Assembly (NCBI GenBank): GCA_016287975.1
Contig: JAEEXV010000075.1
Coordinates: forward strand, 7,680-71,679
Source: Lentisphaeria bacterium
GTDB lineage: Bacteria > Verrucomicrobiota > Lentisphaeria > Oligosphaerales > Oligosphaeraceae
Direction: 5' to 3'
Length of the DNA stretch: 64,000 bases
Under the pieces are notes generated by a model. It searched no databases, was not told the DNA's origin, and worked only from the letters and a program-made list of their open reading frames with translations. A program made the position numbers and the translations under genes. Positions within the stretch are counted from its first letter, which is position 1. Each line of letters opens with the position of its first letter. This document shows positions 35,654 through 52,560 of this stretch, in pieces.

Positions 35654-36349
35654 ATGAAACTCTCCGTCATCATCCCCGCCTACAACGAGAAGGACACCAT
35701 CCTCAACATCCTGGAGCAGGTCCGCAACTGCGGCGTCCCCGACCTCGAAATCGTCGTCGTCGACGACTGCTCCACCGACGGCACCACAGACATCCTGAAG
35801 GGGCTCCCCGCCGCCCCGGACCTCAACATCGTCCACCACGAGCGCAACCAGGGCAAGGGCGCCGCCATCCGCACCGCCCAGCAGCTCGTCACGGGGGACG
35901 CCGTGATCATCCAGGACGCCGACCTCGAATACTCCCCCGCCGAGTTCCCCGCCATGCTCAAGCTCATCGAGGAGGGCAAAGCCGACGCCGTCTTCGGCTC
36001 CCGATACTCGGGCCGCGTCATCCTCGTCGACACCTTCGTCCACTATGTCGGCAACAAATTCCTGACCACCGTCTCGAACTTCTGCTCCAATCTCCATCTC
36101 ACCGACATGGAGACCTGCTACAAGATGGTGCGCCGCGAACTCTTCCAGAGTTTCCACCTCGAATGCAACCGCTTCGGCTTCGAGCCCGAAATCACCGCCA
36201 AACTCTCCCGCTCCCGCGCCCGCATCTACGAAGTCCCCATCGCCTACACCGCCCGCGCCTTCGACGCAGGCAAGAAAATCGGCTGGAAGGACGGCGTCGC
36301 CGCCATCTGGTATATCCTCAAATACAACTGGTTCAAGCGCAAACTGTAA
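35654..36349 (+). CDS. Family 2 glycosyltransferase (dolichol/polyprenol-phosphate hexose synthase type)
   Basis: A 231-residue GT-A enzyme. LSVIIPAYNEKDTILNILEQ is the nucleotide-sugar binding start, EIVVVDDCSTDGT the first Asp block and VIIQDADLEYSP the DxD motif. FGSRYSGR and DMETCYKMVRREL are typical of polyprenol-phosphate mannosyl/glucosyl transferases. There are no membrane helices, so it is the short DPM1-like form, acting at the cytoplasmic face to make a lipid-linked sugar. It lies 14 nt after the carboxypeptidase gene, suggesting an envelope-assembly role. Confidence 0.9.
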   Translation: MKLSVIIPAYNEKDTILNILEQVRNCGVPDLEIVVVDDCSTDGTTDILKGLPAAPDLNIVHHERNQGKGAAIRTAQQLVTGDAVIIQDADLEYSPAEFPAMLKLIEEGKADAVFGSRYSGRVILVDTFVHYVGNKFLTTVSNFCSNLHLTDMETCYKMVRRELFQSFHLECNRFGFEPEITAKLSRSRARIYEVPIAYTARAFDAGKKIGWKDGVAAIWYILKYNWFKRKL

Positions 36350-36372
36350 CTCCTTCCAGAAGGGCCTCCGCC

Positions 36373-38634
36373 ATGACGCTTCACCGCCTGCTCCTCGCGT
36401 TTGCCTGCCTGCTCCTCTCAGTCCATCCCCTCGCCGCGCAGTTCCAGAAGGGAAGACTGCCCGCCTGGAAGGAGGCCCCCGCCGACTACAAGGGGAAATA
36501 CCAGTGGGGCGTCCGCGGCGTGATGAAGCCCGCCGACCAGTTCCCTGAACTCGCGCCGTTCCTGAAGGAACTGCCAGGGAATCCGAAAGTCGTGAAGGTA
36601 ACTGGCATCATCCTCGGCGGCACGGGCGCCGAAGACGGCCTCCAGCCTGGCGACATCATCCTCGCCGTCAACGGCCGCCCCGCCAGCGCACCCATGAAGG
36701 AGGAAGAAGACCTCCTCCTGAAACTCTGGCGCCCCGACGGCGGAAAGGGAAAGATCCTCGAACTCCGCACCCACCTCGGGCACTACTACCACACCATGCG
36801 CGACCAGTACCGCGACGCCCCAGGCGCCCGCGAGTTCCAGGACTTCGTGCCCGTCTGGTGGGACGAGGTCTGCGCCATCCTCTCCCAAGACGACCTGGCG
36901 CCGCACCTGGCGGACACCCTCCAGCGCCTCGTCAAGGTCGACACCCTCGTCGACCGCTACCGCCTCCCCATCTACCGCTACACCGCCCGCAATCCCTTCA
37001 AGATCGAGGCCGTCGCCGCCAGCGTCGTCCGCCGCCTGAAGGCCCCCGACGGCGCCGACGACCACGGCCTCCTCCGAGGCACGCTCGACACCGCACGATA
37101 TCTGCTCGACTTCCAGGAGGCGCCCGCCTGGCCGCAAGACGCCCGGGCGCCCGACCTCCAGACCATGGACGCGCTCCTCGCGCACATCGAATCCGTCCTC
37201 GCCAAGGCCGCCGCGCACCACGCTCGCGCCTTCGCCGCACTCTCCAACGAGGAACGGGACTTCATCCTCAAACATCGGGACGGCCTGATGCAGTCCTTCC
37301 TGAACCACCACATGCTGAGCTACGAACCAGACCTCAAGGCCATCGAGAACTATGTGCGGCTGCTCGAACTCATGGCGAAAATCGACCTCGCCGAACTCTT
37401 CGCCCAGGCCCGAATCGCCTCCACCCTGACCACCCCCGCATTCCTCGACGCCGTCCGACGCCTCGCCGCCAAGGACGCCGCAAAGCCAGTCGTCGCCGCC
37501 AGGCAGACGCCCTACGGGAAAATCGTCGTCGCGGGCACCGCCGACAACCGCCACACGGACGACGCCGCCGTCCTGATCGACCTGGGCGGCGACGACCTCT
37601 ACCTGAACCGCCAGGGCGCCAGCATCCCCGGCCAAGTCCCCACCGCCATCCTCGTCGACCTCGGCGGCAACGACCGCTATGAAAACACCGACAACTTCTC
37701 CCAGGGCTGCGGCGACCTCGGCGTCGGAATCCTCCATGACCTGGCAGGAGACGACATCTACATCGGCATGAGGGCCGTCCAGGGCGCCTGCTTCGGCGGC
37801 ATCGGCATCCTCCTCGACACCGCAGGCAACGACACCTACCGCTCCCTCTCCTTCTCCCAGGGATGCGCCCTCTTCGGCGCGGGCCTCCTCCTCGACCGCG
37901 CGGGCAACGACCGCTACGAGGGCCTCTCCGCCGTCCAGGCCGTCGGCTCCGTCAAGGGCGTCGGCATCCTCTCCGACCTCGCGGGCGACGACACCTACTA
38001 CTGCAAGGGCGGCAGCCAGACCTCCTACCAGACCCGTGGACACTTCGAGGGCTGGGGACAGGGCATCGGCTTCGGACTGCGTCCCTACGCATCGGGCGGC
38101 TTCGGCCTCCTCGCCGACTGGAACGGCCGCGACGCCATGGAGGGCGGCGCCTTCACCCAAGGAGGCGGATACTTCTACGGCTTCGGAATGCTCTTCAACG
38201 GCGGACACGACGACGACTTCTACATCGGAACCCGTTACGCGCAGGGCTTCTGCGCCCACCAGGCCGTCGGGGTCTTCATCGAGGAAGGCGGCAACGACAA
38301 ATACCGCACCACCCACTGCGTCGCACAGGGACTCTCCTGGGACGAAACCGTCGTCCTCTTCCTCGACCAGGGCGGAAACGACGACTACGACGCAGGCACG
38401 GGCGGCTTCAGCCTCGGCGCCTCCGCCCACAACGGCATCCTCATCTTCCGCGACCTGGAGGGGCGCGACCAGTACGGCCCCTCCAGGGCCGCCTCCGCAG
38501 GCGGCAACCACTATCACGGCGGACACTCCCTCTCCATCTTCATCGACGAGGGACACGCCGACGACACCTACCACGGCCGCAAAAACAACTCCACCGAAAC
38601 CGGCCCCGACGACTTTATCTTCATCGACAAATAG
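36373..38634 (+). CDS. Secreted PDZ protein with a C-terminal GGND repeat solenoid
   Basis: A 753-residue exported protein. Signal peptide MTLHRLLLAFACLLLSVHPLAA. A PDZ-like domain at ~70-140 contains GTGAEDGLQPGDIILAVNGR. A helical middle region runs from ~150 to 380. From ~390 to the end about twelve copies of D-x-(G/A)-G-(N/D)-D-x-Y occur, e.g. DLGGDDLY, DLGGNDRY, DLAGDDIY, DTAGNDTY, DRAGNDRY, EEGGNDKY and DQGGNDDY. The first copies are 26-27 residues apart, separated by FSQGC-type and G-x-GILxD segments. This suggests a beta-solenoid with acidic, perhaps calcium-binding turns; it differs from RTX nonapeptides. No protease triad is seen. Role unknown; possibly a periplasmic or surface scaffold. 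Confidence 0.8.
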   Translation: MTLHRLLLAFACLLLSVHPLAAQFQKGRLPAWKEAPADYKGKYQWGVRGVMKPADQFPELAPFLKELPGNPKVVKVTGIILGGTGAEDGLQPGDIILAVNGRPASAPMKEEEDLLLKLWRPDGGKGKILELRTHLGHYYHTMRDQYRDAPGAREFQDFVPVWWDEVCAILSQDDLAPHLADTLQRLVKVDTLVDRYRLPIYRYTARNPFKIEAVAASVVRRLKAPDGADDHGLLRGTLDTARYLLDFQEAPAWPQDARAPDLQTMDALLAHIESVLAKAAAHHARAFAALSNEERDFILKHRDGLMQSFLNHHMLSYEPDLKAIENYVRLLELMAKIDLAELFAQARIASTLTTPAFLDAVRRLAAKDAAKPVVAARQTPYGKIVVAGTADNRHTDDAAVLIDLGGDDLYLNRQGASIPGQVPTAILVDLGGNDRYENTDNFSQGCGDLGVGILHDLAGDDIYIGMRAVQGACFGGIGILLDTAGNDTYRSLSFSQGCALFGAGLLLDRAGNDRYEGLSAVQAVGSVKGVGILSDLAGDDTYYCKGGSQTSYQTRGHFEGWGQGIGFGLRPYASGGFGLLADWNGRDAMEGGAFTQGGGYFYGFGMLFNGGHDDDFYIGTRYAQGFCAHQAVGVFIEEGGNDKYRTTHCVAQGLSWDETVVLFLDQGGNDDYDAGTGGFSLGASAHNGILIFRDLEGRDQYGPSRAASAGGNHYHGGHSLSIFIDEGHADDTYHGRKNNSTETGPDDFIFIDK

Positions 38635-39110: not shown

Positions 39111-42100
39111 CTATGGGAGCACGAGCGCGTCGCCTGGGGGGATGGTGACTTCGGCGGGGAGGCCGGGGAGGCCGAGCCTGGCGGCGTCGAGTTTGACCTT
39201 CCGCGGCTTGGTTCCTGGATTGAGAAGGATGAGCAGCCAGTGGCCGTCGCCGTCGTGCAGGAGGGCGTTGTCGGCCTCGGGAAGGCCTGCGGCGGCGAGT
39301 TTCTCGGGATGGTTCTCGGAGCGCAGGAAGAATGCCTCGTGCCTGGCTAGGATGCTGGAGGCGCGGGCGATGGCGGTGAAGGAGCGCGCGTCCATGCAGG
39401 GGAAGGTGTAGACGAAGAACCCGTTGTTGGCGTCGATGGCGCGCCGCATCACCTGAGCGAGGGTGCATGGGGGGACGGGGCGCTTGTTCCCATATTCGTA
39501 GGGACGTAGGATGGCGCCGAGTTGGAACGGCGTGCGCTTGAGCGCGGCGCGGGTGGCCTGGAGGGTGGCCAGGTCGCGGCCATAGCCGAGGACGGCCAGG
39601 TCGATGCGCCCGTCGAGCTTACGCCAGTCGACGCCGTATTGGCTGTGGGTGTCCTCGCATTCGTATCCCGAGTAGACGGACAGGATGACGCCAGGGAGGG
39701 TCTGGTGGATGGAGTCGCGGAAGAGCTGGGCGAGATCGGCGAAGCGCGTGGTCATGAAGTCGGTCCAGGCGGGCAGATGCCGTTCGGCGATTTCCCGCGC
39801 GGAGGGGACGCCAGGGAGCTTGGCGCCCTTGGCGAACTCGGCGCGGCAGTCGTCGCAGAAGCAGGCGATCTGCGAATGGAGTACATTCTCCTCGAAGTCC
39901 CAGTTGATGTTGGTGACGTAGCCGAGTCGTTTGTGCCATTTGGGGAGGGTCGCGAGGATGAAGGCGCGGCACTCGGGGGCGCCAAGGATTTCGCGCGGGC
40001 AGACGAGGAAGTCGGAACGCCTGCCGCGGAGGTCGACGAGAGCCTTGCGGGGATGCGCCTTGACGTAGGGCGCGAAACTGAAGTTCCACTCCTTGAAGTG
40101 GAAGAAGGTGGACTGCGGAAGCAGGTTGCAGTGGTTGCGGAGGGCGGCGTTGACGCAGGTGAGCCCCATGCCGCGGAAGAACTCGACCAACGGGGTGTAG
40201 AGCGATTTGTCCCGCAGGCTCGGCAGCCACCCGGTGCTCATGCGGACGCCGAGGCGCCTGGGCTGGCTCCCCTGGATGCGCGGCAGCAGCACGAGCGGGA
40301 CGCGCTGCGGCGCCTCGGCAAGCGCGTCGGCGGGGCTTTCGGCGTGGAAATAGAATGCGTCGCCGCCTGCGGCGTCTTCGTCGACGGCGAGGAATGCGGC
40401 GAGGTAGTGGTGGCCTGGAAGCGCGGGCTTCCACGGGCGCGGCCCCGCGATTTCGATGCGCCATCGCGTCCAGCCCTTGCCGAGGGGCGAGGCGGGCATC
40501 TGGCGGTGCTTCACCTCGTAGACCTCGTAGTATCCGCTGGCGCCGAGGAGGCGGATGCCTGACGGCAGGTCAAGGACGACGGCGTAGTCGCGGGCGGTCC
40601 TGCCAGGGAAGCCGCGCGGCGCGAAGAGCAGTTGCTGCAGGCCGCCTCTGGCGACATGGAGCGCGTCGGCCTTCCAGTTGGGCCAGAGTTCGGTGGCGCC
40701 GTCGGCGAGGGTCAACTGCCAGCGGCCAGGGGCGGCCTTCTTCCAGCCCTCGGGAAAGGGAATGGGCGCGCCCGCCACGGAGAGGCGCGCGTCGGCGCCT
40801 TCGGGCGCCTGGAGCTCCAGTTCATTGAGGCCGCTGGCAAGGGCGGCGCCCTGCGGGGCGGGACGCCCGTTGACGGCAAGGCGCACCCCCCTGGGAAGGC
40901 GCGCCTCCAGACGCTGGGCGCTGAGGGCGAGGCGGTATTGCGGGGAGCGCAGCAGCGGCCGCAGGGCCGCGTCGGCGGCGTCCCACTGGAAGCGGAACGT
41001 GCCGTTGCCGTCGAGGTTGAAATTCAGCGCGCTGGCGCCGCCGATGACGGCGGCGGGCTGGCGGTCGAAGGCGATTCGGGCGCCCAGCAGCAGCGGCGCG
41101 TCCGAGCGGAGGGCGAGGCGGTTGGCGCCTGGAATGAATTCAGGCCAGGCGGCGAAATCCGCGGTGGGGACGGCGCCGACCAGGCGCGCCTCGAAGAAGT
41201 CGGCGTTCTCGTGGAGGCCAGCGCCCTGGATGGGCTGGTAGCTGCTCTGCTCCTTGGCGGGCTTCTCGAAACGGCCCAGTTTGATCTGAAGCGGCGCGTC
41301 TGGAAGCCCGCCGAGCGTCTTCCACGGAACCGCGACCTCGGCGGCCCAATGCCCGTCTTTCTCCACGTTGTACACGGCGACAGCGGCCCTGGCGCCAGAT
41401 TCCCAGCCTGGGTCGCGCCTGCCCCAGAGATCCTGGAGGGGGCTCTTGCAGTCGAGAATCGCGCCAGTGGCGCTCACGAGGAGCTCGAAGGCATGGCCAG
41501 GGGCACTGGGATGGCGCAGGAGCGCGACGACGCAGTCGTCCTGGGAGGCCTTGAGGTCGTCGTGCCTTGCATGGCCGCGCTTGAACTCATGGAGGCGGTT
41601 GGCGGAGGGGGCGAGGGCGGATTCCTGGCAGCGGAAGGAGAGGTACAGGCATTCGTCGTCCCAGAGCAGCCGCGCGGTGGTCTGTTCGACGGCGAAGGCG
41701 CTGCGGCCCTGGAGGATGAAGGGCGCAAGAGGGATGCTGTGGCGCCAGGCGTCGTCGTCGAGGCGTCCGTCGATGGCGGGGGTGCCGCGACCGACGGCGA
41801 CGGAAGCGGAGGAGGGGACGGGGATGGGCGGCGGGAGGGCGTCCAGTTGCGCGGGGGCAAGAGAGGCTTCGGTGGTGATGACGATGCGGTCGAGGAAGAA
41901 CTCCGCCTTCGGGCTGCCTGAGAACTGGAGGACGGCCTCGGGGAAGGCGGCGAAGGCGGGGACGGGGCCGAAGTGGAGCCACTGCCAGTCGTCCCCGTCG
42001 GCGAACTTCACGTAGGGGGTGACGCGCTGGCGGCTGCCGAGGTGGTACAGCACGGCGGAGGCCTCCTCCGCCCCCTGGCGCCGCATCCGCGCATAGTAGT

Positions 42101-42683
42101 GGACGGGGCGCGTGGTGGCGGGGACGGGCAGGCGCGCCCCGTAGTACCAGCGCTTGCCCCAGACGACCTCCTGCCCGTCCACCTTGCGGACGCGGGCAAA
42201 GGTCCCTGGGCGCTCGGCGCCGCGCAGGCAGACGGGCGGGACGGCGAGGTCGGCGAGCGCGGGGGCCTCCTCGACGGCGGCGGTGAGGTTTCGCACCTCG
42301 AAAGTGGCTTCATTGGCGCCGCTCGGGAGGAAGAGGCTGAAGGTGGAGGCGGGGGCGGCGTCGGCGTAGGAGACCGCCATCGTCTGCCATTCGGCGGAGA
42401 GTTCAATGGGGGCCTTGCCGTAGGACCAGCCGAAGCGCCCGTTGATGCCGCATTGCACCTTGCCCGCTCCGCGCACTTCGCAGCGGTAGACCGTCCGGCG
42501 CCCTGGCGTCGCGGGCACGCTGACGCTGACGCCTGCATGCCTTCCTGCGGCCTCCACTTTCAGAATGCCATCCTGGAGCCTGCATTTCGAAGCGTTGACG
42601 GGGCGGAACTCCCGCAGCGGCAGGTCGGCGGCGAAAAGGAAGGCGGCGGCGAGCAAGGCAAGGCAGGCGGCGTAGCGGTTCAT
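39111..42683 (-). CDS. Giant secreted CBM9-like plus cysteine-motif TIM-barrel protein (paralogue A)
   Basis: A 1190-residue exported protein. Signal peptide MNRYAACLALLAAAFLFAAD. Residues ~20-290 hold two beta-sandwich, CBM-like segments. Residues ~295-520 are a CBM9-like domain (VAVGRGTPAIDGRLDDDAWR, LLWDDECLYLSFRCQESA). The last ~380 residues form a TIM-barrel-like module containing INWDFEENVL, CFCDDCRAEF, LSVYSGYECEDTHSQYGVDW and a C-terminal beta domain (LLILLNPGTKPRKVKLD). The C-x-C-x2-C motif resembles the Cys cluster of GH42-type barrels. The gene at 46542-49343 is a paralogue without the N-terminal ~280 residues. Probably a cell-surface or secreted glycosidase; family and substrate not established. 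Confidence 0.75.
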   Translation of the reverse strand: MNRYAACLALLAAAFLFAADLPLREFRPVNASKCRLQDGILKVEAAGRHAGVSVSVPATPGRRTVYRCEVRGAGKVQCGINGRFGWSYGKAPIELSAEWQTMAVSYADAAPASTFSLFLPSGANEATFEVRNLTAAVEEAPALADLAVPPVCLRGAERPGTFARVRKVDGQEVVWGKRWYYGARLPVPATTRPVHYYARMRRQGAEEASAVLYHLGSRQRVTPYVKFADGDDWQWLHFGPVPAFAAFPEAVLQFSGSPKAEFFLDRIVITTEASLAPAQLDALPPPIPVPSSASVAVGRGTPAIDGRLDDDAWRHSIPLAPFILQGRSAFAVEQTTARLLWDDECLYLSFRCQESALAPSANRLHEFKRGHARHDDLKASQDDCVVALLRHPSAPGHAFELLVSATGAILDCKSPLQDLWGRRDPGWESGARAAVAVYNVEKDGHWAAEVAVPWKTLGGLPDAPLQIKLGRFEKPAKEQSSYQPIQGAGLHENADFFEARLVGAVPTADFAAWPEFIPGANRLALRSDAPLLLGARIAFDRQPAAVIGGASALNFNLDGNGTFRFQWDAADAALRPLLRSPQYRLALSAQRLEARLPRGVRLAVNGRPAPQGAALASGLNELELQAPEGADARLSVAGAPIPFPEGWKKAAPGRWQLTLADGATELWPNWKADALHVARGGLQQLLFAPRGFPGRTARDYAVVLDLPSGIRLLGASGYYEVYEVKHRQMPASPLGKGWTRWRIEIAGPRPWKPALPGHHYLAAFLAVDEDAAGGDAFYFHAESPADALAEAPQRVPLVLLPRIQGSQPRRLGVRMSTGWLPSLRDKSLYTPLVEFFRGMGLTCVNAALRNHCNLLPQSTFFHFKEWNFSFAPYVKAHPRKALVDLRGRRSDFLVCPREILGAPECRAFILATLPKWHKRLGYVTNINWDFEENVLHSQIACFCDDCRAEFAKGAKLPGVPSAREIAERHLPAWTDFMTTRFADLAQLFRDSIHQTLPGVILSVYSGYECEDTHSQYGVDWRKLDGRIDLAVLGYGRDLATLQATRAALKRTPFQLGAILRPYEYGNKRPVPPCTLAQVMRRAIDANNGFFVYTFPCMDARSFTAIARASSILARHEAFFLRSENHPEKLAAAGLPEADNALLHDGDGHWLLILLNPGTKPRKVKLDAARLGLPGLPAEVTIPPGDALVLP

Positions 42684-42798
42684 GGCGTTCTTTTCCCTTT
42701 TGTTCCTGCGGAGGCAGCGGGTTCAGGCCGGATTGTTCAACGCGGACGGCGGGTCATTGTGTCAATGTAACGCACTTTTCCCAGATAGGACAGTTCCA

Positions 42799-42853
42799 TC
42801 GCCATTTCGTCATGCCAAGCTGGCGTGTCTGCATCCTCGAAGGCAGGCACGCC
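42799..42853. repeat. Dispersed hairpin repeat, copy A
   Basis: CGCCATTTCGTCATGCCAAG followed by CTGGCG (42800-42825), then a hairpin GGCGTGTCTGC / GCAGGCACGCC (42822-42853, one mismatch). The first part resembles 49434-49457. It may also end pseudopilin transcription, 22 nt after its stop on the minus strand. Confidence 0.5.
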
Positions 42854-42874
42854 GACTGGAGATGGAACGTCCAA

Positions 42875-43594
42875 TTACTTGTTCTTGCGGATGCAGAAGT
42901 TCAGGTTGGAGAGTTCAGTGCGGGCGACGGCGGCGGCGTGGCCGTCGCCGAATACGGCATTGGCCTTCTTGTTGTGCAGGAACCAGATGCCCTTGCCAGT
43001 GACATTGAAGCCATCGGGGACGCAACTCTTCCAGGGGCTGCCCCAACTGCAGCCGTCGTAGGTGAAGTCGGTGTAGGTGTCCTTGCCGTAGTTGTCGGCG
43101 AAGCAAAGCAGGTCGCTGAGGCGTTCAGCCTGGGTGCGTCGCAGCGCCAGGGTTTCCGAACTGGAGAGCACGGCCCTCGCGGCCGGCATCTGGTTGTAGC
43201 CGTAGTCGGCGTATTTCCAGGCCATCTTGCGCCCGTAGGGATTGGTCGGGCAGTTGAGGATGGAGCTGGGCAGGTTGGAGATGGAAAAGACTTTGGTGGG
43301 GAGGTACTGGGTCTTCAGGTAGTCGCCCGCGAAGGGGTGCTGCTTTTCGTTGCACCAGTAGTAGGAGCCAGAGGTCGGCTTGGGGACGGTGGCGGGGAAG
43401 AAGAACTCGTCGTTGTCGGTGAGGTAGAAGTTCAGGGTGAAGCCCAACTGCTTCAACTGGTTCAGGCAGGAGATGGCCTTGGCCTTCTCGCGCGCCTGGT
43501 TGAGCGCGGGCAGCAGCATGCTCGCCAGGATGGCGATGATCGCGATGACGACAAGCAGTTCAATGAGCGTGAACAGGTTGGTCTGGCGGTTCAT
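42875..43594 (-). CDS. Pseudopilin-like secreted protein (type IV pilin N-terminus, H-x9-DG C-terminus)
   Basis: A 239-residue protein with the prepilin start [20 protein letters not shown] (cleavage expected before Phe, Glu5 conserved), followed by [20 protein letters not shown]. The C-terminal part has the H-x9-DG signature in [16 protein letters not shown]. This architecture is hugely expanded in Planctomycetes and Lentisphaerota. The proteins are thought to be type II secretion/pilus-like envelope components, often encoded beside secreted glycosidases. Start ATG 43594 has GGAG 8 nt upstream. It lies 17 nt after the LacI gene and should share its promoter, upstream of paralogue A. Confidence 0.88.
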
Positions 43595-43611
43595 GGTGGT
43601 TTCTCCGTGGG

Positions 43612-44625
43612 TTATGCGGTTTCGCGAATGACGAGTTTGGGTTGCAGACGGGAGCGATCGACGGGACGGTCCTCGCCTAGAATCTGGTTGAAGAGCAACT
43701 GGGCGGCGACGGCGCCCAGTTCGCGCATGGGATTGGTGATGCTGGTAAGGCGAGGGTGGAGGTGGTCGCAGTACGGCAGGTTGTTGAAGCCTATGAGGCG
43801 AATCTCCTGGCCGAGCATGCCGCCCATGCCGCGGCGGCAAAGTTCGCCGTGGACAAGCATCGCGCGGCTGTCGTTGGTGGAAAGGCCGACGGGATAGGGG
43901 CCGTGGCTGAGTTCATCCATAAGCGGCGGCAGGGCTTCAATCGGGGAGGCGGGGACGCCGGAAGTCAGGCAGAAGGAGCGGCAGGGAAGGCCCGCCGCAT
44001 CAGCGGCGGCCCGGAATCCGCGCAGGCGTGCGCCGAATTGGTGGCTCACGGCGCTGCCCTCGGTCAGCAGTCGCACGCACCCGGTCGAGATGAGGCGCTC
44101 CGCCGCAAGATGGCCGCCCAGTTCGTTGTTGATATCCAGGTGCGGCAGGGAGACGCCCGCTGGCAGCGGCGAGTTGATCACGACCACCGAAGTGCCCTGG
44201 CGCGTCAGCCGCTTCAGCAGCGGCGGGATCGGGCTGCGCGAGACATCAGCGGGCAGATAGGTCACGATCCCTACGTTCTTCGTGCGCTCGGTCTGCGTCA
44301 GCAGTTCGAAAAGGCGCTCGCCGCTGATGTCGAAGGAGACGCTGTAGGAAAAGCCCTCCCGGTTCGCCTCCTCCGTCAACCCCTGCAGCAACGGCTGCAC
44401 CAGTTCCGGGTTGTAGGTCGGCAGGAAAAAGCCCAGCGACGGCCCCAGGCCGCGCTTCAGGCAACTCGCCATCCGATTCGGAGAATACGACAGGCGCGCC
44501 GCCACCTCCCGAATCCGGTTGCGGGTCTCCTCCGCCACAAGGTGGCTTGTCCGCTCACCCAGCGCCCGACTCACCACTGTCACCGAAAAGCCCGTCGCCT
44601 CCGCTATGTCCCGTAATGTCGCCAT
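43612..44625 (-). CDS. LacI-family transcriptional regulator
   Basis: A 337-residue LacI/GalR protein. N-terminal helix-turn-helix [20 protein letters not shown] and hinge helix [14 protein letters not shown] are followed by a periplasmic-binding-protein-like sugar domain ([60 protein letters not shown]). Start chosen at ATG 44625, with GGGAG 10 nt upstream. Two matching operator-like palindromes lie in the divergent intergenic region: one just downstream of its own promoter and one downstream of the plus-strand promoter. It probably represses both the pseudopilin side and the sialidase-fold/CBM9 side until a sugar binds. Confidence 0.92.
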
Positions 44626-44651
44626 GGTCACAACTCCCTTTCCACCTCTTT

Positions 44652-44663
44652 GCAAACGTTTGC
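44652..44663. promoter_or_regulatory. LacI-type operator O1
   Basis: Perfect 12-bp palindrome GCAAACGTTTGC with central CG, the standard LacI/GalR shape. It begins 3 nt after the -10 box of the lacI-type promoter (minus strand), thus over the start of transcription, and would give autorepression. Confidence 0.8.
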
Positions 44664-44666
44664 TGT

Positions 44667-44695
44667 ACTATAATGCGGCATGGATGGTTTGTCAA
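44667..44695 (-). promoter_or_regulatory. Promoter of the lacI-type gene
   Basis: On the minus strand -35 TTGACA (44695-44690), exactly 17-bp spacer, -10 TATAGT (44672-44667). The best sigma-70-like promoter in the window. Confidence 0.8.
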
Positions 44696-44760
44696 ACGAA
44701 ACTGGCGTGGCAGACCAGATGCCAAGGTGGGACGCCCTGGGGAATTTTGCGGGCGGCGGC

Positions 44761-44788
44761 TTGACAATGGGCAATGAGCCGCTATTTT
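44761..44788 (+). promoter_or_regulatory. Promoter of the sialidase-fold/CBM9 unit
   Basis: -35 TTGACA (44761-44766), 16-bp spacer, -10 TATTTT (44783-44788). The second LacI-type operator lies 13 nt further downstream, where a bound repressor would block transcription. Confidence 0.65.
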
Positions 44789-44801
44789 AATGTAGTTTTC
44801 A

Positions 44802-44813
44802 GCAATCGTTTGC
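44802..44813. promoter_or_regulatory. LacI-type operator O2
   Basis: GCAATCGTTTGC differs from O1 by a single base. It is positioned just downstream of the plus-strand -10 box, consistent with repression of the sialidase-fold/CBM9 genes by the adjacent LacI protein. Confidence 0.7.
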
Positions 44814-44867
44814 AACGTGTGACACACAAAGAGTTGCGGCAACTGTTTTTGGGGCGAGGAGGTCTGG

Positions 44868-46526
44868 ATGACGAGACGAGTGATGTGGGTTCTGCTGGCT
44901 GGGGTGGCGTTGGCGTTGGCGGGCGACCAGGTGTTGTTCCAGGACGGCTTTGCGAACTACGTGCTTTCCAGCGGTGCGCCGAACTGGCTCATCCACAGTG
45001 GGAAATGGGAGTTCAAGGACGGGGTGGTGCGGCAGATTGACCCGAAGGCGAATGGGGCGCTGCTGTTCCTGGACGGCAAGTCCTTCAGCGATGTCCGCCT
45101 GAAAGTGCGTTTTCATCCGGACGGCGGCGCGTCGCAGGTTCGTGCGGCGGGGCTGGTGTTCCGCGCGAAGGACAGCCTGACCTACTACTGGGTGCATTTC
45201 GATGTGCGGAACTCCCAGGTCGTGCTGGCGCGGCGCACCCCCGAGAAGGGGTGGATCATCGTGCGGCGGGCCGGGGGCGTCCAGATTGCACCCGGGGTGT
45301 GGCACGTGGGCGAGGTCACGGCCGTCGGGCAGAAGATGAGCGTCAAACTGGACGGCAAGGCGATTCTCACGGCGGAGGACGGCGCGCTGTCGGCGGGGCG
45401 GGTCGGATTGCGAACCGGGATGGGGATCATCGGCTTCGACGACTTTGAGGTCAGCGGTCAGCCGGCCGACGATTCCAAGTTCGTGAGGCACACGGCGCCC
45501 CCCGAGGACGGGAAGACGCGCCGCCTCGCGGTACCGCGTGTGGTCTCCTCCCGGGACTGCGGCTATTTTCCGGTGCTGCTCCACCTGGGCGGGCAGAAGT
45601 TGGGCGCCGTCATCCGGGCGGGCGCGCCGCATGTCGGCATCGGCGGGCGCCTGGACTGGATATGCAGCGAGGACGGCGGGAAGAGCTGGAGCCAGCCGAG
45701 TGTGATCGTCGACAGCCGCCATGACGACCGCAACCCTGCGGCGATGCTGACGCGCGACGGGCGGATCATCGTCATCTATTCCGAGGCCAGCACCTACAAT
45801 GAGAAAGGCGAATACAACCCGAAGTACGGCACCTTCTCCCTCTTCCTCACTGAATCCGCCGACGGCGGCAAGACCTGGAGTCCCAAGCGCCCGCTCGTCT
45901 TCGAAGGATACCAGACGCAATGCGTCTACGGGCAGGGGATCACTCTTGCCAACGGCGACCTTCTCGTGCCCTGGTACACTGGAAAGACGGTCGGTGGTTT
46001 CATCCGCTCGAAGGACGGGGGGCGGACATGGCGGCAGCCGAAGGTGATCGGGCCCTGCTGTGAAATCGCCTTCGCGGAGGTCGCCCCGAAGGAGATCGTC
46101 GCCGCCGGTAGAACCAAGAGCGGCTGCCTGATCCTGCGCTCGACCGACAACGGCGAGACCTGGAGCAAGCCCGAACGACTCACTCCCAAGGGGATGCATC
46201 CCGCCACCCTGATTCGGCTGGCGGACGGACGGCTCTTCCTGGCCTACAGTTGCCGCATCCGCCCCTTCGGAATCAAGGTTGCGCTCAGCCTGGACAACGG
46301 GAAAAACTGGAAGGAGGAAAACTCGGCCTACATTTCGTGGGACAGCAGCAATGGCGACAGCGGCTACCCGTCGGCCGTCCAACTGGCGGACGGCAGCGTC
46401 GTGGTCGTCAGTTATGCCGTCGGCAGCGGGATGCTGCCCGAGGCGATCCAGTCGCAGTGCGCCATCCTCTCTCCTGAGAGCCTGAACCAACTCGGCGCCG
46501 CCGACCCCATTGTTACCAAACCTTGA
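44868..46526 (+). CDS. Secreted DUF1080-like plus sialidase-fold (BNR) protein
   Basis: A 552-residue exported protein. Signal peptide MTRRVMWVLLAGVALALAG. Residues ~22-195 form a concanavalin-like domain of the 3-keto-disaccharide hydrolase/DUF1080 type (VLFQDGFANYVLSSGAPNW, VRAAGLVFRAKDSLTYYWVH, GRVGLRTGMGIIGFDDFEV). Residues ~215-545 are a sialidase-type propeller with five Asp boxes: SEDGGKSW, SADGGKTW, SKDGGRTW, STDNGETW and SLDNGKNW. RHDDRNPAAMLTRDGRIIVI and MHPATLIRLADGRLFLAYSC are typical. A strong SD (GAGGAGG) precedes the ATG by 5 nt. First gene of the plus-strand unit under LacI-type control. Sialic acid or another acidic sugar is a possible target. Confidence 0.85.
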   Translation: MTRRVMWVLLAGVALALAGDQVLFQDGFANYVLSSGAPNWLIHSGKWEFKDGVVRQIDPKANGALLFLDGKSFSDVRLKVRFHPDGGASQVRAAGLVFRAKDSLTYYWVHFDVRNSQVVLARRTPEKGWIIVRRAGGVQIAPGVWHVGEVTAVGQKMSVKLDGKAILTAEDGALSAGRVGLRTGMGIIGFDDFEVSGQPADDSKFVRHTAPPEDGKTRRLAVPRVVSSRDCGYFPVLLHLGGQKLGAVIRAGAPHVGIGGRLDWICSEDGGKSWSQPSVIVDSRHDDRNPAAMLTRDGRIIVIYSEASTYNEKGEYNPKYGTFSLFLTESADGGKTWSPKRPLVFEGYQTQCVYGQGITLANGDLLVPWYTGKTVGGFIRSKDGGRTWRQPKVIGPCCEIAFAEVAPKEIVAAGRTKSGCLILRSTDNGETWSKPERLTPKGMHPATLIRLADGRLFLAYSCRIRPFGIKVALSLDNGKNWKEENSAYISWDSSNGDSGYPSAVQLADGSVVVVSYAVGSGMLPEAIQSQCAILSPESLNQLGAADPIVTKP

Positions 46527-46541
46527 ATGGAGATTTCCGCA

Positions 46542-49343
46542 ATGCGCATTTCCCTGGCATGCCTGGTGGCGTTTCTTGTTAGCGTGGTGTTCGCGGCGCC
46601 GCATCCCGGCCTGGTCACGGCGGGGCGCGGCACGCCAGTCATCGACGGGCGGCTGGACGAGGCGGCCTGGTCGGGGGCGATTGCGCTCAAGCCGTTCCTG
46701 TTGCAGAAGGCGGGGCGGCCGGCGACGGAGGAGACGGAACTGCGCATCCTCTGGGATGACGAGGCGCTCTATTTCGGCTTCCAGTGCCACGAGCGTGCCC
46801 TGAACCCTGTCGACAACCGCCTCCATGCTTTCAAGCGGTCGTGCACCACGCACGATTCCGATGCGCTCTACAAGGACGACTGCGTGGAGGTACTGCTGGT
46901 GAATCCCACAACGCCGAAGCGCGTCTACGACCTCATCGTGGGCGCCAGCGGCGCGTTCAAGGACAGTGTGGCGGCGCGGACGGAGGCGATGTGGGTGAAG
47001 CGCGACGCGGCGTGGGAGTCGGGCGCGAAGGTGGCGGTCGTCGTCGTCGAAGGGGCGGCGGGCGCGTGGACGGCGGAGTTCGCGATTCCGTGGAAGTCGC
47101 TGGGAGGCCGGTGCGGCGGGGCGTGGCTGTTCAAGGCGGCGCGCTTTGAGAAGCCGTCGCAGGAGAACAGCGCGTGGCAGCCGATTGAGATAGGCATCCA
47201 TCTGCCGGGGGAGTTCTCCGAACTGCGTCTGGCGGATTCGGTGCCAGGGGTGGCGTTGGAGGCGTGGCCAGAATTCGTTCCAGGTGAAAACACGATGGCG
47301 TTCCAGTGTGACGGAGGGATGGCGACCAGCGTTGAGGCGACGGTCGCCTTTTCCGGGGCGACGCCGAGACATTTCCGCGCCGCCATGCCGGGGACTGGGA
47401 CGGGACGTCTACCCTTCCAACTGGAGGGGCGTGGAAACTTCATCTTCCACTGGAGCGTGGAAGGCGCCGCCAACTTCGCGGACGTCTTCCGTTCTCCAGA
47501 CTATTCGCTGGCCGCCAGCGCACAACTGCTGGAGGTGGAACTGAAGGGGGCGCGGCTGATGGTAAACGGCCACCCCGCCGCGAAGGCGGCGGCACTCCGC
47601 AGCGGCCTCAACGAACTGCGGCTGTCTGGGGCTACGCCGGGTGTGCGGATGCAGGCGGGCGGCTACCCCCTGGAATTCCCCGACGGATGGCGGACGGAAA
47701 AGGACGGCACCCACACGCTGAAATTGGCATGCGGCATCTCCTCGGTCTGGCCGAACTGGCAGGAGCAGGGGCTCTGGGTCAACCGGGGCGGCATCCAGCA
47801 GTTGCTGCTGGCGCCGCACGGCATTCCGGGACACGCCGTCTCCGACTACGGCTGGACGGTGGAACTGCCGGCGGGAATGAAACTTCTGGGGGCAAGCGGA
47901 TACTACGATCGTTATCCGCTTGAGACCACCGCTCTAACGGGAAACCGCTGGCGGGTTACAGTGAAGCGCTCCCTCAAATGGCGGGAGGCGCTCCAGGGAC
48001 ATGAATACATCGCGCTGGTGCTGGGAATCGACGAGAAGGCGCCTGGACATGGCGGGCAGTTGCACTTCTGGGCCACCAGCGCGTCGGCGTGCGTGCGGGA
48101 GGTCCCGCAGACCATCGAGGTGCACTACCTGCCGCCGGCGCACGGCGGGCATCCGCGGAAATTCTTGGTGCAACTCTGGTGTGGCTGGCTGGCGAAACTC
48201 GACCGACGCGACCTTTTCCCGCTGTATCTCGACTACATGTGCGGCGCGGGGACAACGCAGGTGCCCTTCCTGCCAGGCGCGCCGCATGAGGTGCCGAGTT
48301 TCTTCTGCATCAACTTCAAGACCTGGAACCTGAACCTGTCGGAGTATGCGGCGGCGCATCCAGCGCGCCAGCGCGTCACTTTTGCAGGCAAGGCGGATCC
48401 GACGATGGTCTGCCCCCATGAAATGCTGGCGCAGGGGGATTTCCGCGCCGAACTGAAGCGGCTGCTGCCAGTCTGGCACGCCGCGCACGGCCGCTGCCAG
48501 GAGATCCAGTGGGACTTCGAGCACGGGGTTTTCGGGGATTCCCCCATCTCCTGCTACTGCCCGCGCTGCCTCGCCGACTTCGCGAAGACCGCGAAACTGT
48601 CGGCGCCGCCGAAACCCGCCGACTTGCAGAAACACCACGGCAAGGCCTGGATCGAGTTCATGACCCAGCGGCAGGCCGACATCGCGGCGCTGCTGCGCGA
48701 TGCCATCCACGAGGCGCTTCCGGCTGGCACGGTCTTTTCGGTCTATTCGGGCTACGAGTGCGAAGCCACGCACCGCGTCTACGGCGTCGACTGGCGCAAA
48801 CTGGACGGCAGAATCGACCGCGCGTCAACGGGCTACGGGCGCAATCCGGCCAATCTGGAGGCGACGCACGCGGCGCTGGAGAAGACGCCGCTGGTGCTGG
48901 GCGCCATCATCCACCCATATCGCTTCACCGAGCGCTTCCCCCCGCGGGTCTTCACCGCCGCGCAGTTGATGCGACGCGCCTGCGACGCCACCGCCGGCAT
49001 CCTGCTGTACTACTACCCCACCGCCGACGGCCGCAGTTTCTCCGCGCTGGCGAAGGCCACCACTCTCATCGCCGCGCACGAGGAGTGTTTCCTCAATCGC
49101 CGAAACGAGGTCGCGAAACTGCAACTCCAGGGCGGCGGCGAGGCGGAAGCCGCGCTGCTCTCCGATGGCCGCGGCAGGCAGTTGGTCGTGCTGATGAACG
49201 GCGGCACCGCCCCGCGGACCATCACCTGCGGGCTTCCTGGCGTGCGCGGATTCATCGACTCCTTCACTGGGAAACCCGCCCCGAACCCCGTGGCCCTGAA
49301 ACTCGCTCCTGGCGACATCGCCGCATTCACCGTCGCGCCGTAG
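46542..49343 (+). CDS. Giant secreted CBM9-like plus cysteine-motif TIM-barrel protein (paralogue B)
   Basis: A 933-residue exported protein. Start chosen at ATG 46542 (signal peptide MRISLACLVAFLVSVVFAAP, GGAG 9 nt upstream) over the ATG at 46527. Residues ~25-220 are CBM9-like (GRGTPVIDGRLDEAAWSGAI, ILWDDEALYFGFQCHERALN). The C-terminal module carries EIQWDFEHGVF, CYCPRCLADF, VFSVYSGYECEATHRVYGVD and AQLMRRACDATAGILLYYYP, residue-for-residue recognisable against paralogue A. In this fold WDFE may hold a catalytic acid and the C-x-C-x2-C a zinc site; both are inferences. It follows the sialidase-fold gene by 15 nt, so the two are co-expressed. Confidence 0.78.
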   Translation: MRISLACLVAFLVSVVFAAPHPGLVTAGRGTPVIDGRLDEAAWSGAIALKPFLLQKAGRPATEETELRILWDDEALYFGFQCHERALNPVDNRLHAFKRSCTTHDSDALYKDDCVEVLLVNPTTPKRVYDLIVGASGAFKDSVAARTEAMWVKRDAAWESGAKVAVVVVEGAAGAWTAEFAIPWKSLGGRCGGAWLFKAARFEKPSQENSAWQPIEIGIHLPGEFSELRLADSVPGVALEAWPEFVPGENTMAFQCDGGMATSVEATVAFSGATPRHFRAAMPGTGTGRLPFQLEGRGNFIFHWSVEGAANFADVFRSPDYSLAASAQLLEVELKGARLMVNGHPAAKAAALRSGLNELRLSGATPGVRMQAGGYPLEFPDGWRTEKDGTHTLKLACGISSVWPNWQEQGLWVNRGGIQQLLLAPHGIPGHAVSDYGWTVELPAGMKLLGASGYYDRYPLETTALTGNRWRVTVKRSLKWREALQGHEYIALVLGIDEKAPGHGGQLHFWATSASACVREVPQTIEVHYLPPAHGGHPRKFLVQLWCGWLAKLDRRDLFPLYLDYMCGAGTTQVPFLPGAPHEVPSFFCINFKTWNLNLSEYAAAHPARQRVTFAGKADPTMVCPHEMLAQGDFRAELKRLLPVWHAAHGRCQEIQWDFEHGVFGDSPISCYCPRCLADFAKTAKLSAPPKPADLQKHHGKAWIEFMTQRQADIAALLRDAIHEALPAGTVFSVYSGYECEATHRVYGVDWRKLDGRIDRASTGYGRNPANLEATHAALEKTPLVLGAIIHPYRFTERFPPRVFTAAQLMRRACDATAGILLYYYPTADGRSFSALAKATTLIAAHEECFLNRRNEVAKLQLQGGGEAEAALLSDGRGRQLVVLMNGGTAPRTITCGLPGVRGFIDSFTGKPAPNPVALKLAPGDIAAFTVAP

Positions 49344-49915: not shown

Positions 49916-51142
49916 ATGAACATGAAGTCCACATTTCGCCTGGCCGCGCTGCTGGCGGCCTGCCTGTTGTTTTCCTCGTGCGCGCTGATTTCGCAGGGCG
50001 GCAAGGCCCCGGAGACGAAGATTGCGCAGGTGCTGCGCAAGTACATCGATTCGGGGGAGTTGCCGCACGCCATCGACATCCTCTTCAACAACGGCAAGGA
50101 GGAGATCACGTGCGTGGGCTGGGCGGATGTGGACGCGCGGCGTCCAGTGACCATCGACGATCCGTATATGCAGTGCTCGCAGACCAAGGGCTTCTGCGGC
50201 GTCACGATCGCGATGCTGGTCGAGGAAGGAAAGTTGTCGCTGGACGACCCCGTGTCGAAGTATCTTCCTGAGTTCAAGACGCTGTGGGTGCTTGAGTCGG
50301 ACAAGGACGGCGTGCGCACGCTGCGGAAGGCGAAGAACACGCTGACGGTGCGGATGGTGATGAACCACACGGGCGGCTTCCCGTTCGAGATCCCCGCCAA
50401 GCAGGCGGCGATTCCAGGCGGCGGCTGGTCGGGCGGCATGCCGCTGCGGTCGGTGGCGGCGACGGCGGCCTCGCAGCCGCTGCTCTTCGAGCCAGGCACC
50501 AAGGTGAAATACTCCAACACGGGCATCGACATCGGGGCGGCGGTCGTCGAGGCGATCACAGGCAAGAAGTGGGAAGTCTTTCTCCAGGAGCGCGTGCTGG
50601 ATCCGCTCGGCATGAAGGAGACCTGCTTCAAGCCCTCCGACGCGCAGCTCGCGCGCCAGATCGAACTGTATGTAGTCAAGCCTGGCACCAAGGCGAAGCG
50701 GATTCCCTTCAACGGCTGGCAGCAGCGCCCGTACAACGACGACCATGTCTTCGCCTCCGCGGGGGCGGGCCTGTGGACCACCGCGCGCGACCAGATCAAG
50801 TTCTACAAGATGCTGATGAACCTCGGGGTGGGCGACAACGGCGTCCGCCTCCTCAAGGAGGAGACCGTGAAGACGCTGCTGGCGACTTCAAGCCGTCCTG
50901 AGGCCCTGGGAAAATACTCGCTGGGGCTGAACATCTCGAAGGACGGGTGGTTCGGGCACGGCGGCGCGTGGGGGACGGGCTGCTGGGTGAATCCCGCCAA
51001 GCGCCAGTTGAAGTTGTGGGCGGTGCAGTTGAACGGCACCCCGCGTCCGTGGGACAAGGAGCGCGTCCAGGCCGAAAACGAGTTCTTCGCGGAACAGTTG
51101 GACAATGCGTCGCAGGACGCCTATACGGGCCGCACGAACTAG
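49916..51142 (+). CDS. Beta-lactamase-fold serine hydrolase (class C/CubicO type), probable lipoprotein
   Basis: A 408-residue exported protein with a near-lipobox signal (LAALLAACLLFSSC, Cys22). Catalytic motifs of the S12/class C family are intact: S88-Q-T-K91 (QCSQTKGFCG), Y-S-N (VKYSNTGIDIG) and the late H-G-G (FGHGGAWG). VRMVMNHTGGFPFEI is the usual conserved loop. Such enzymes act as esterases, D-amino-acid peptidases or carboxypeptidases rather than drug-resistance beta-lactamases. It is followed 17 nt later by an amidohydrolase gene, and the two may act in one degradation pathway. Confidence 0.88.
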   Translation: MNMKSTFRLAALLAACLLFSSCALISQGGKAPETKIAQVLRKYIDSGELPHAIDILFNNGKEEITCVGWADVDARRPVTIDDPYMQCSQTKGFCGVTIAMLVEEGKLSLDDPVSKYLPEFKTLWVLESDKDGVRTLRKAKNTLTVRMVMNHTGGFPFEIPAKQAAIPGGGWSGGMPLRSVAATAASQPLLFEPGTKVKYSNTGIDIGAAVVEAITGKKWEVFLQERVLDPLGMKETCFKPSDAQLARQIELYVVKPGTKAKRIPFNGWQQRPYNDDHVFASAGAGLWTTARDQIKFYKMLMNLGVGDNGVRLLKEETVKTLLATSSRPEALGKYSLGLNISKDGWFGHGGAWGTGCWVNPAKRQLKLWAVQLNGTPRPWDKERVQAENEFFAEQLDNASQDAYTGRTN

Positions 51143-51159
51143 AGACGAGGAGGCTTGCG

Positions 51160-52323
51160 ATGATTGCGTTGGTTGGCGGCACGGTGAAGACGATGGCGGG
51201 GCCCGACATTGTGGACGGGCAGGTGCTGGTGGACGGCGGCAAGGTGGTCGCGGTGGGGAAGCGCGTGCGGATCCCGAAGGATGCGGAGCGGCTGGACTGC
51301 CGCGGCTGCCTGGTGACGCCGGGGCTGATCGACGCTCACACGCATGTCGGGATGCAGGAGAACAGCCTCCGCTGGGAGGGCCTCGACCTCAACGAGAACA
51401 CCACCAAGGGGGTGACGCCTGACATGCGCGCGATCGACGCCGCCGACCCGCGCGACGAGGAACTGGGTGCCGCGCTCGCGGCGGGGGTGACGGCCGTGTG
51501 CATCACGCCAGGCTCCCGCAATGTGGTCGGTGGCGCCGCCTGCGCCATCAAGCTCCACGGGAAGTGCATCGACGACATGGTGATCAAGGAGCCGGTGGCG
51601 ATCAAGGCGGCCTTTGGCGAGAACCCCAAGGGCCACGGCCAGGAGGGCCATTCGCCCAAGACCCGCATGTGCGTCGCCGCGATGCTGCGCAATCTCCTCG
51701 CCAAGGCGCGCGAATACGCGCGCCAGTTGGACGAGGCGGCGAAGGACTCTTCCAAGACCCCGCCCGCCTTCGACGCCGAATTGCAGGCGATGCTTCCGGT
51801 CGTCCGCGGCGAAATCCCGCTGAAGGTGCACGCGCACCGCGACTACGACATCCTGACCGCCCTGCGGATCGCCCGCGAATACGGAATCCGCCTGACCCTG
51901 GAACACTGCACCGAGGGGCATCTGATCGCGGACAAACTGAAGGAGGCGGGTTTCCCCGTGCAGGTGGGCCCCTCCTTCGGCCACAAGAGCAAGCCCGAAC
52001 TCCGCGAGAAGAGTTTCGCGACGCCGGGCATCCTCCAGCGGGCGGGGCTCCAGGTCAGCATCATCACCGATTCCCCCGTCGTGCCGCTGCGCTACCTGCC
52101 GCTATGCGCGGGCCTCGCCGTCCGCGCAGGAATGGACGAAGCGGAAGCCTGGAAGGCCGTCACCATCAACCCCGCCAGGGTGCTCGGCATCGACAAGCGC
52201 GTCGGCTCCATCGAGCGCGGCAAGGACGCCGACATCGCAGTTTTCGACGCCGACCCACTCTGCTCCATCCAGGCCCGCGCCAAATATGTGCTGGTCGACG
52301 GCGAGGTCGTCGTGCGGCAGTAG
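51160..52323 (+). CDS. Metal-dependent amidohydrolase (imidazolonepropionase/dihydroorotase-like)
   Basis: A 387-residue cytoplasmic amidohydrolase. An N-terminal beta segment ([20 protein letters not shown]) leads to the metal motif H60-T-H62 in [29 protein letters not shown] and [17 protein letters not shown] supply further metal-ligand His, and [11 protein letters not shown] the late catalytic Asp. The C-terminal [19 protein letters not shown] is diagnostic. Start ATG 51160 has a good SD (GAGGAGG, 7 nt). It may hydrolyse a cyclic amide or dipeptide; substrate unknown. It ends just upstream of a minisatellite. Confidence 0.9.
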
Positions 52324-52376: not shown

Positions 52377-52555
52377 TCCCTCTGGTCCCCTTGGGTCCCT
52401 TGGGTCCCTTGGGTCCCTTTGGGCCCTTTGGCCCCTTTGGCCCCTTTGGCCCCTTTGGTCCCTTGGGTCCCTCTGGTCCCTCTGGTCCCTCTGGTCCCTC
52501 TGGTCCCTCTGGTCCCTCTGGTCCCTTTGGTCCCTCTGGTCCCTTTGGTCCCTTG
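52377..52555. repeat. 9-bp minisatellite, about 20 copies
   Basis: Tandem units of consensus TCCCTCTGG with variants TCCCTTGGG, TCCCTTTGG and CCCCTTTGG, arranged in blocks of like variants. The 9-bp period keeps all frames open, so it would encode Gly-Pro-Leu/Phe/Ser repeats on plus and Gly-Thr-Lys/Arg repeats on minus if translated, but it lies between two complete genes. The stretch 52324-52376 has no other feature. Confidence 0.95.
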
Positions 52556-52560
52556 AATCG

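Follow-up and report, generated by a model that had tools for sequence, protein, structure and literature searches.

A predicted LacI-controlled glycan-degradation locus with distant GH42 relatives and its own pseudopilin in a Lentisphaeria bacterium

The stretch of DNA analysed here, called the window, covers 64 kb of a Lentisphaeria bacterium (contig JAEEXV010000075.1, positions 7,680 to 71,679). It holds a divergent two-arm locus in which a LacI-family regulator, a pseudopilin and a large protein, TIM_A, lie on one arm, and a sialidase-fold protein and the TIM_A paralogue TIM_B on the other. We lean slightly towards reading it as a LacI-controlled glycan-degradation regulon with exported enzymes derived from glycoside hydrolase (GH) family 42 and a locus-specific pseudopilin. 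The layout, the operator-like sites, the predicted fold, the conserved residues and the recurrence of the cassette in related genomes were computed, and carry this reading.

The divergent locus and its control region

Features were assigned from open reading frames together with Pfam and NCBIfam profiles. The five genes that had been proposed by an earlier inspection of the letters (the sequence-only reading) are all open at their place, with lengths given in amino acids (aa):

39111..42683, minus strand: TIM_A, 1190 aa (open reading frame, alignment, Pfam)
42875..43594, minus strand: pseudopilin of H-x9-DG type, 239 aa (profiles, model)
43612..44625, minus strand: LacI-family regulator (PF00356, 39 bits; PF13377, 62.3 bits)
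44652..44663, no strand: operator-like perfect palindrome GCAAACGTTTGC, just past the -10 of the leftward promoter-like site
44667..44695, minus strand: leftward promoter-like site TTGACA-17-TATAGT, for LacI-pilin-TIM_A (promoter scan)
44761..44788, plus strand: rightward promoter-like site TTGACA-16-TATTTT, for BNR-TIM_B (promoter scan)
44802..44813, no strand: second operator-like site GCAATCGTTTGC, 1 mismatch, just past the -10 of the rightward promoter-like site
44868..46526, plus strand: LamG-like (PF06439) and sialidase-fold (PF13088, BNR_2) protein, 552 aa (Pfam, PDB matches)
46527..49343, plus strand: TIM_B, 938 aa, directly after the stop codon of the BNR protein

The left arm is an operon-like set in the order LacI, pseudopilin, TIM_A; the pseudopilin begins 17 bp past the LacI stop codon and TIM_A another 191 bp on. 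The LacI frame opens at a TTG (44655), and the internal ATG at 44625 was taken as the start. Both of its domains, the helix-turn-helix PF00356 and the sugar-binding PF13377, score over their cut-offs (27 and 26.5 bits). The right arm carries the LamG-like/sialidase-fold protein and then TIM_B, for which 933 residues had been claimed; the shorter figure would correspond to a start at the in-frame ATG five codons further in, and the 1190 residues given for TIM_A hold. TIM_A, TIM_B and the sialidase-fold protein all begin with segments that, judged by eye, resemble signal peptides.

The promoter scan, run over 11.4 kb, returned just these two sites where shuffles expect 0.8, so that the pair is weak on the scan alone. 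Both operator-like sites are 12 bp long and LacI-type, with a central CG. With 0-1 mismatch the 12-mer occurs in the 64 kb at these two sites only; with up to 2 mismatches there are 4 matches against 1.9 expected, a count reached by 9/100 shuffles. Since these are two copies of one operator, the natural reading of the predicted sites is that a single LacI repressor would serve both arms. It would sit on the two near-identical operators at the divergent promoters and repress both arms until an inducer sugar arrives, its left target being its own operon, LacI-pseudopilin-TIM_A, and its right target the BNR protein and TIM_B.

The pseudopilin has the prepilin motif FTLIELL and is over the cut-off of TIGR02532 (21.6 against 16.3) and just under that of PF07963 (20.1 against 21.2); its model shows an N-terminal helix at 10-60. 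The H-x9-DG-like C-terminus scores 17.5 bits with TIGR04294 (cut-off 19), and PF07596 also stays under its cut-off (16.4 against 23.3 bits). The sialidase-fold protein matches PF13088; its best PDB match is the uncharacterised 5hx0 and the next is neuraminidase C, a likeness at family and sequence level only. Its front part is the Pfam domain 3keto-disac_hyd (PF06439), which we take to be the former DUF1080. In the DUF1080/sialidase label proposed earlier, the first half is thereby corrected to the current family name.

The large paralogues and the placing of their barrel

TIM_A and TIM_B, rightly called paralogues by the sequence-only reading, are 44% identical over 899 columns and fall in one clade (100/100 support). 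Within it TIM_A groups with P0005, whereas the partners of TIM_B are P0001/P0002, so that the duplication predates the species. TIM_A is composed of a signal-like segment, a region at residues ~4-281 that is a separate gene in three relatives (the N-domain gene), a CBM9-like domain from ~290, beta domains and a GH42-like barrel from ~808 to the end, the last border being set by alignment to TIM_B. TIM_B has a signal-like segment, CBM9 (25-238), beta domains and a GH42-like barrel with a C-terminal beta domain (543-938). CBM9, which had been assigned to both, scores over the Pfam cut-off in TIM_B (27.8 against 23.4 bits) and under it in TIM_A (15.6). The shared WDFE, C-x-C-x2-C and SVYSGYEC-type motifs noticed earlier are real and fall where the family is most conserved: D663, E665, Y740, Y743, Y770 and D820 (numbering of the 938-aa protein) are invariant in 30/30 sequences, and every cysteine of C-x-C-x2-C is retained in 29/30.

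GH42 is the family to which the barrel can be assigned, as a distant relative. A GH42-type barrel with a C-terminal beta domain was found, and the acid/base Glu is kept in 30/30, on the assumption of a one-residue shift, as E665 and the GH42 acid/base miss each other by one position in the hhalign path. The sequence-only reading could place the large proteins in no named GH family; in view of the distant relationship, the barrel is not wholly beyond placing. PF02449 and the GH42 trimerisation domain gave no Pfam match for either paralogue up to E 0.1. From GH42 (PF02449) the window proteins also differ in the CBM9 and beta domains in front of the barrel and in the residue before the acid/base Glu, which is Tyr in 23, Phe in 6 and Ile in 1 of the 30 sequences instead of the Asn of GH42; the Asn-Glu pair is absent.

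Other observations weigh against the GH42 placement or against activity. At the nucleophile column 793, after beta-7, whose equivalence comes from sequence/profile alignment and not from superposed coordinates, Ala is found in TIM_A and TIM_B and Glu in 12/30, while all 6 GH42 proteins compared have the Glu nucleophile; because of this Ala, activity may differ or be absent. The top Foldseek match of the whole model is a GH13 protein (8dge, E 2.4e-8), dextranases and GH123 rank above the first GH42 (6ptm, rank 38, E 3.9e-5), and the full-length TM-scores of the barrel matches are at most 0.36. Sequence searches gave little more: in the large proteins Pfam finds CBM9 only, plus a short BAGE match judged spurious, and NCBIfam none; phmmer against the PDB yields CBM9-type matches only for the 938-aa protein and none for the 1190-aa one; and the 30-sequence profile against the PDB returns five weak rows, among them two CBM9 modules and one GH42 LacZ (9ta3, E 0.54). 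Profile comparison with DUF4838 gave 88.9% (9 proteins, 139 columns, one run), which leaves room for a possible link of the barrel to that family. GH20 (2.7%), DUF4434 (0.2%), GH123, DUF6259 and GH115 (0.1% each) were rejected as weak negatives, from 1-5 sequences and one run each.

The same residues bear on whether the large paralogues are enzymes at all. They could be glycan-binding scaffolds, pseudo-glycosidases that keep a GH42-type cleft; the Ala at column 793 and the Tyr, Phe or Ile before the acid/base Glu would fit this. We hold it to be unlikely: the six invariant residues suggest an active site, and the D-x-E pair could serve a mechanism that dispenses with the beta-7 nucleophile. 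According to the preferred regulon reading, TIM_A and TIM_B would be exported, CBM9 would hold the glycan, and the GH42-derived barrel would act on it with the WD[FY]E glutamate as general acid/base.

In L016 (10007-12852) and L018 (1130-5059) the enzyme is split in two adjacent frames near a domain border, and P0007 covers the C-terminal part only; on account of these, the GH42-like barrel may be able to stand alone.

The LacI-pseudopilin tandem and the genes that follow it

The tandem was counted in related genomes as a pilin match starting on the same strand no more than 300 bp past the end of a PF13377 domain; "LacI-type" is loose here, PF13377 being found in other regulators too, such as a GntR protein at locus L001. 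In the Lentisphaeria genome G001, which contains locus L017, there are 142 pilin matches and 106 PF13377 matches, and 58 of the 106 form a tandem (median 70 bp); random placement, with contig extents approximated by the largest coordinate seen, gave a mean of 0.97 and a maximum of 6 in 2000 trials. In G002, another Lentisphaeria genome (that of L008), the count is 49/119 against 1.4 at random and covers 150 of 207 pilin candidates. The order is fixed: looking 1.8 kb upstream of each LacI, G001 has zero pilins in the same orientation and G002 has four, against 5.4 by chance. The gap from LacI to pilin in G001 is -4 to 30 bp in 31/44 cases, and palindromes with at least 5/6 flanking pairs precede 13/44 of the cassette LacI genes, against 8.7% of shuffles, which lends modest support to a predicted autoregulation of LacI in these cassettes.

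The gene after the G001 pilin is typically very large (median 918 aa) and starts 0-60 bp past it in 29/45 cases. From the 58 pairs we retained 40 downstream genes, dropping pairs with no clean LacI/pilin call or no following gene of at least 150 aa. Carbohydrate-enzyme or -binding domains occur in 26/40, a tally that stands without a control set of genes after pilin-less LacI. Enzyme-type domains over the Pfam cut-off are present in 21/40 (DUF4838 9, GH123 4, GH42 or its trimerisation domain 3, DUF6259 2, pectate-lyase/beta-helix 2, heparinase-like 1); 5/40 have carbohydrate-binding or LamG domains only, three of them under cut-off, and one has an Ig-like domain. The remaining 13/40 are free of any Pfam domain and many are large, one being a TIM_A relative (L057).

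Around the TIM gene itself, we compared 20 related loci. The LacI/pseudopilin/CBM9-barrel set named by the sequence-only reading does recur: the window shares the order LacI-pilin-(N-domain gene)-TIM with L008 and L017. In L007 a further reading frame (DUF4434-like by eye only) stands between LacI and the pilin, and the N-domain gene and TIM come after them; in L006 the pilin, the N-domain gene and TIM follow a phosphoesterase, and LacI is divergent; in L001 a GntR-type regulator and a pilin are divergent from the TIM gene. The best match of the window pilin is the TIM-adjacent pilin in G001, G002, G003 and G004, that is, in 4/5 genomes whose enzyme gene has a neighbouring pilin (pilin matches were paired to loci by hand on coordinates), and the same-strand TIM-linked pilin stays with the enzyme in 4/4 genomes searched.

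Several counts tell against a general coupling. A pilin-like gene is found in 8/20 TIM loci on the locus DNA covered, and none in the remaining 12/20, some of which have short flanks and among which is L016 of genome G006; the BNR protein has a match in 0/20. The divergent L001 pilin of G005 matches the window pilin without being its best match. The tandem is rarer in G007 (6/58, from a list of 119 out of at least 150 pilins). Between G001 and G002 (52 and 44 complete cassettes compared; the TIM cassette was left out, G002 having the N-domain gene first), six enzyme pairs are reciprocal-best at 100 bits or more; their pilins are reciprocal-best as well in 2/6 and their LacI in 3/6, and matched inheritance of enzyme and pilin is not claimed as a general rule. 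In G003-G006 one of the 18 LacI-type matches listed, out of 79, has a listed pilin close downstream, a sample too small to weigh for or against. Pilin matches number 8 in G008 and 6 in G009; G010 has 47 pilins and zero PF13377 matches.

These counts allow the tandem to be seen as a historical accident, one ancestral pair copied many times with no functional link. Both families are hugely expanded in a fixed order and the pilin is kept in so few orthologous enzyme pairs, which speaks for it. We think it quite unlikely, as the cassette pilins are 14-40% identical to the window pilin when aligned, so that the pairing has endured over long divergence, and the same-strand TIM-linked pilins remain with their enzyme.

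The role of the pilin is the other point on which readings diverge. T2SSE-type matches number 6-20 per genome in G001-G007, some of them pieces or under cut-off, and pilin matches 62 to at least 150, so that many pilins seem to share few machines. In the regulon reading, the pseudopilin would act as a locus-specific part of the type IV pilus/type II secretion machine that the whole cell shares, and would aid substrate capture or enzyme presentation or export; these roles are inferred, together with repression relieved by a sugar, enzyme activity and a substrate. Nothing in the locus points to a particular substrate, and the mucin, fucoidan and sulfated glycans named for growth trials by the sequence-only reading are guesses. 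The main rival makes the pseudopilin a locus-specific export adaptor, by which the type II secretion system (T2SS) would recognise or push out a very large enzyme, with no glycan-binding role. The size and closeness of the next gene and the ratio of machines to pilins are in its favour; we nevertheless regard it as somewhat unlikely, since the N-terminal signal segments of the three window enzymes look ordinary by eye and known T2SS use a single pseudopilus set for many substrates. Tentatively, as a possible extension of the regulon reading, we propose a pilin-coded glycan uptake: each LacI would free one dedicated pseudopilin and one giant hydrolase, re-tipping a shared pilus machine for each glycan and doing a SusC/SusD-like job through dozens of interchangeable cassettes per genome.

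Other arrangements were also seen. In G006, among the matches listed, three LacI-type matches (contigs C78, C48, C82) are divergent from a pilin, unlike the G001/G002 tandem. AraC was rejected as a partner of other G001 pilins: 5 divergent neighbours among 57 AraC matches against 2.5 at random, one of 58 rows being dropped as a second piece of the same gene. These rules leave 79/142 G001 pilins without a partner of LacI or AraC type.

Comparison with known systems and neighbouring genes

Like the SusC/SusD polysaccharide-utilisation loci of Bacteroidota, the window has a regulator, glycan-binding proteins and probable glycan-cleaving proteins co-located, their activity being predicted. It differs in that a pseudopilin gene is found instead: SusD (PF07980) was found in 0/7 related genomes, draft assemblies of unstated completeness and a set apart from the window's own genome, with a positive Bacteroides control and SusC not searched for. 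The earlier idea of a pseudopilin-based polysaccharide-utilisation locus may be called partly supported: the systematic cassette in two genomes, the missing SusD and the shared operator speak for it, the unmatched BNR protein and the 12/20 loci showing no pilin against it. That the pseudopilin takes the place of SusC/D is a conjecture.

Expanded DUF1559-type pilins are already known in the Planctomycetes-Verrucomicrobia-Chlamydiae (PVC) superphylum. In the portions consulted, PMC2754498 counts 74 DUF1559 genes in Rhodopirellula baltica, and PMC4807772 ranks the family among the largest of planctomycetes and apparently exclusive to PVC. The likeness lies in the prepilin N-terminus and the very many copies per genome; the window pilin differs by being under the PF07596 cut-off, and those portions do not mention coupling to LacI or hydrolases. 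Gold-labelled dextran is located mainly on pili-like fibres of planctomycete crateriform structures in the portion of PMC5394234 consulted, a precedent within the superphylum for pilus-type glycan capture; it concerns a different phylum, and that portion draws no link to locus-specific pseudopilins. No report of the LacI-pseudopilin-hydrolase arrangement was found in the portion of the open-licence PMC literature consulted, and a word search of PMC8857213 and PMC6388578 finds neither pilins nor LacI.

PVC bacteria are rich in pseudopilin genes without a known use, and the Lentisphaeria genomes searched here show no SusD in spite of their many glycan-enzyme genes; the strict order of regulator, pseudopilin and large enzyme, seen 58 and 49 times in two genomes, links both puzzles. 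For the cassette proteins lacking Pfam domains (13/40, many large), the repressor of each cassette could reveal which sugar induces it.

Among the related loci, two same-direction enzyme copies lie on one Kiritimatiellaeota contig (L010:2379-9606). On a rumen Victivallales contig (L002:3063-8207), the enzyme has as neighbours a GH123-CBM9 protein and a ceramidase-like match that is weak and under cut-off, a possible hint of N-acetylgalactosamine-type glycans. The record of L009 bears the label Clostridia, but in the tree its enzyme pairs with one from Lentisphaeria (94/96 support), and the contig is perhaps mis-binned, to judge by this grouping.

In the window, an 823-aa open reading frame (36163-38634) adjoins the 3' end of TIM_A on the left; after its PDZ domain come many glycine/aspartate repeats of GGNDxY type, and its real start is probably internal. 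To the right of TIM_B, 49916-51142 encodes a 408-aa beta-lactamase-like/esterase protein (PF00144, E 4e-57), a 57%-identical relative of which is found near the TIM gene of L011. Behind the long open reading frame 50947-52323, a short repeat at 52391-52681 reads GPSGPSGP and VPLVPLVP in overlapping frames.
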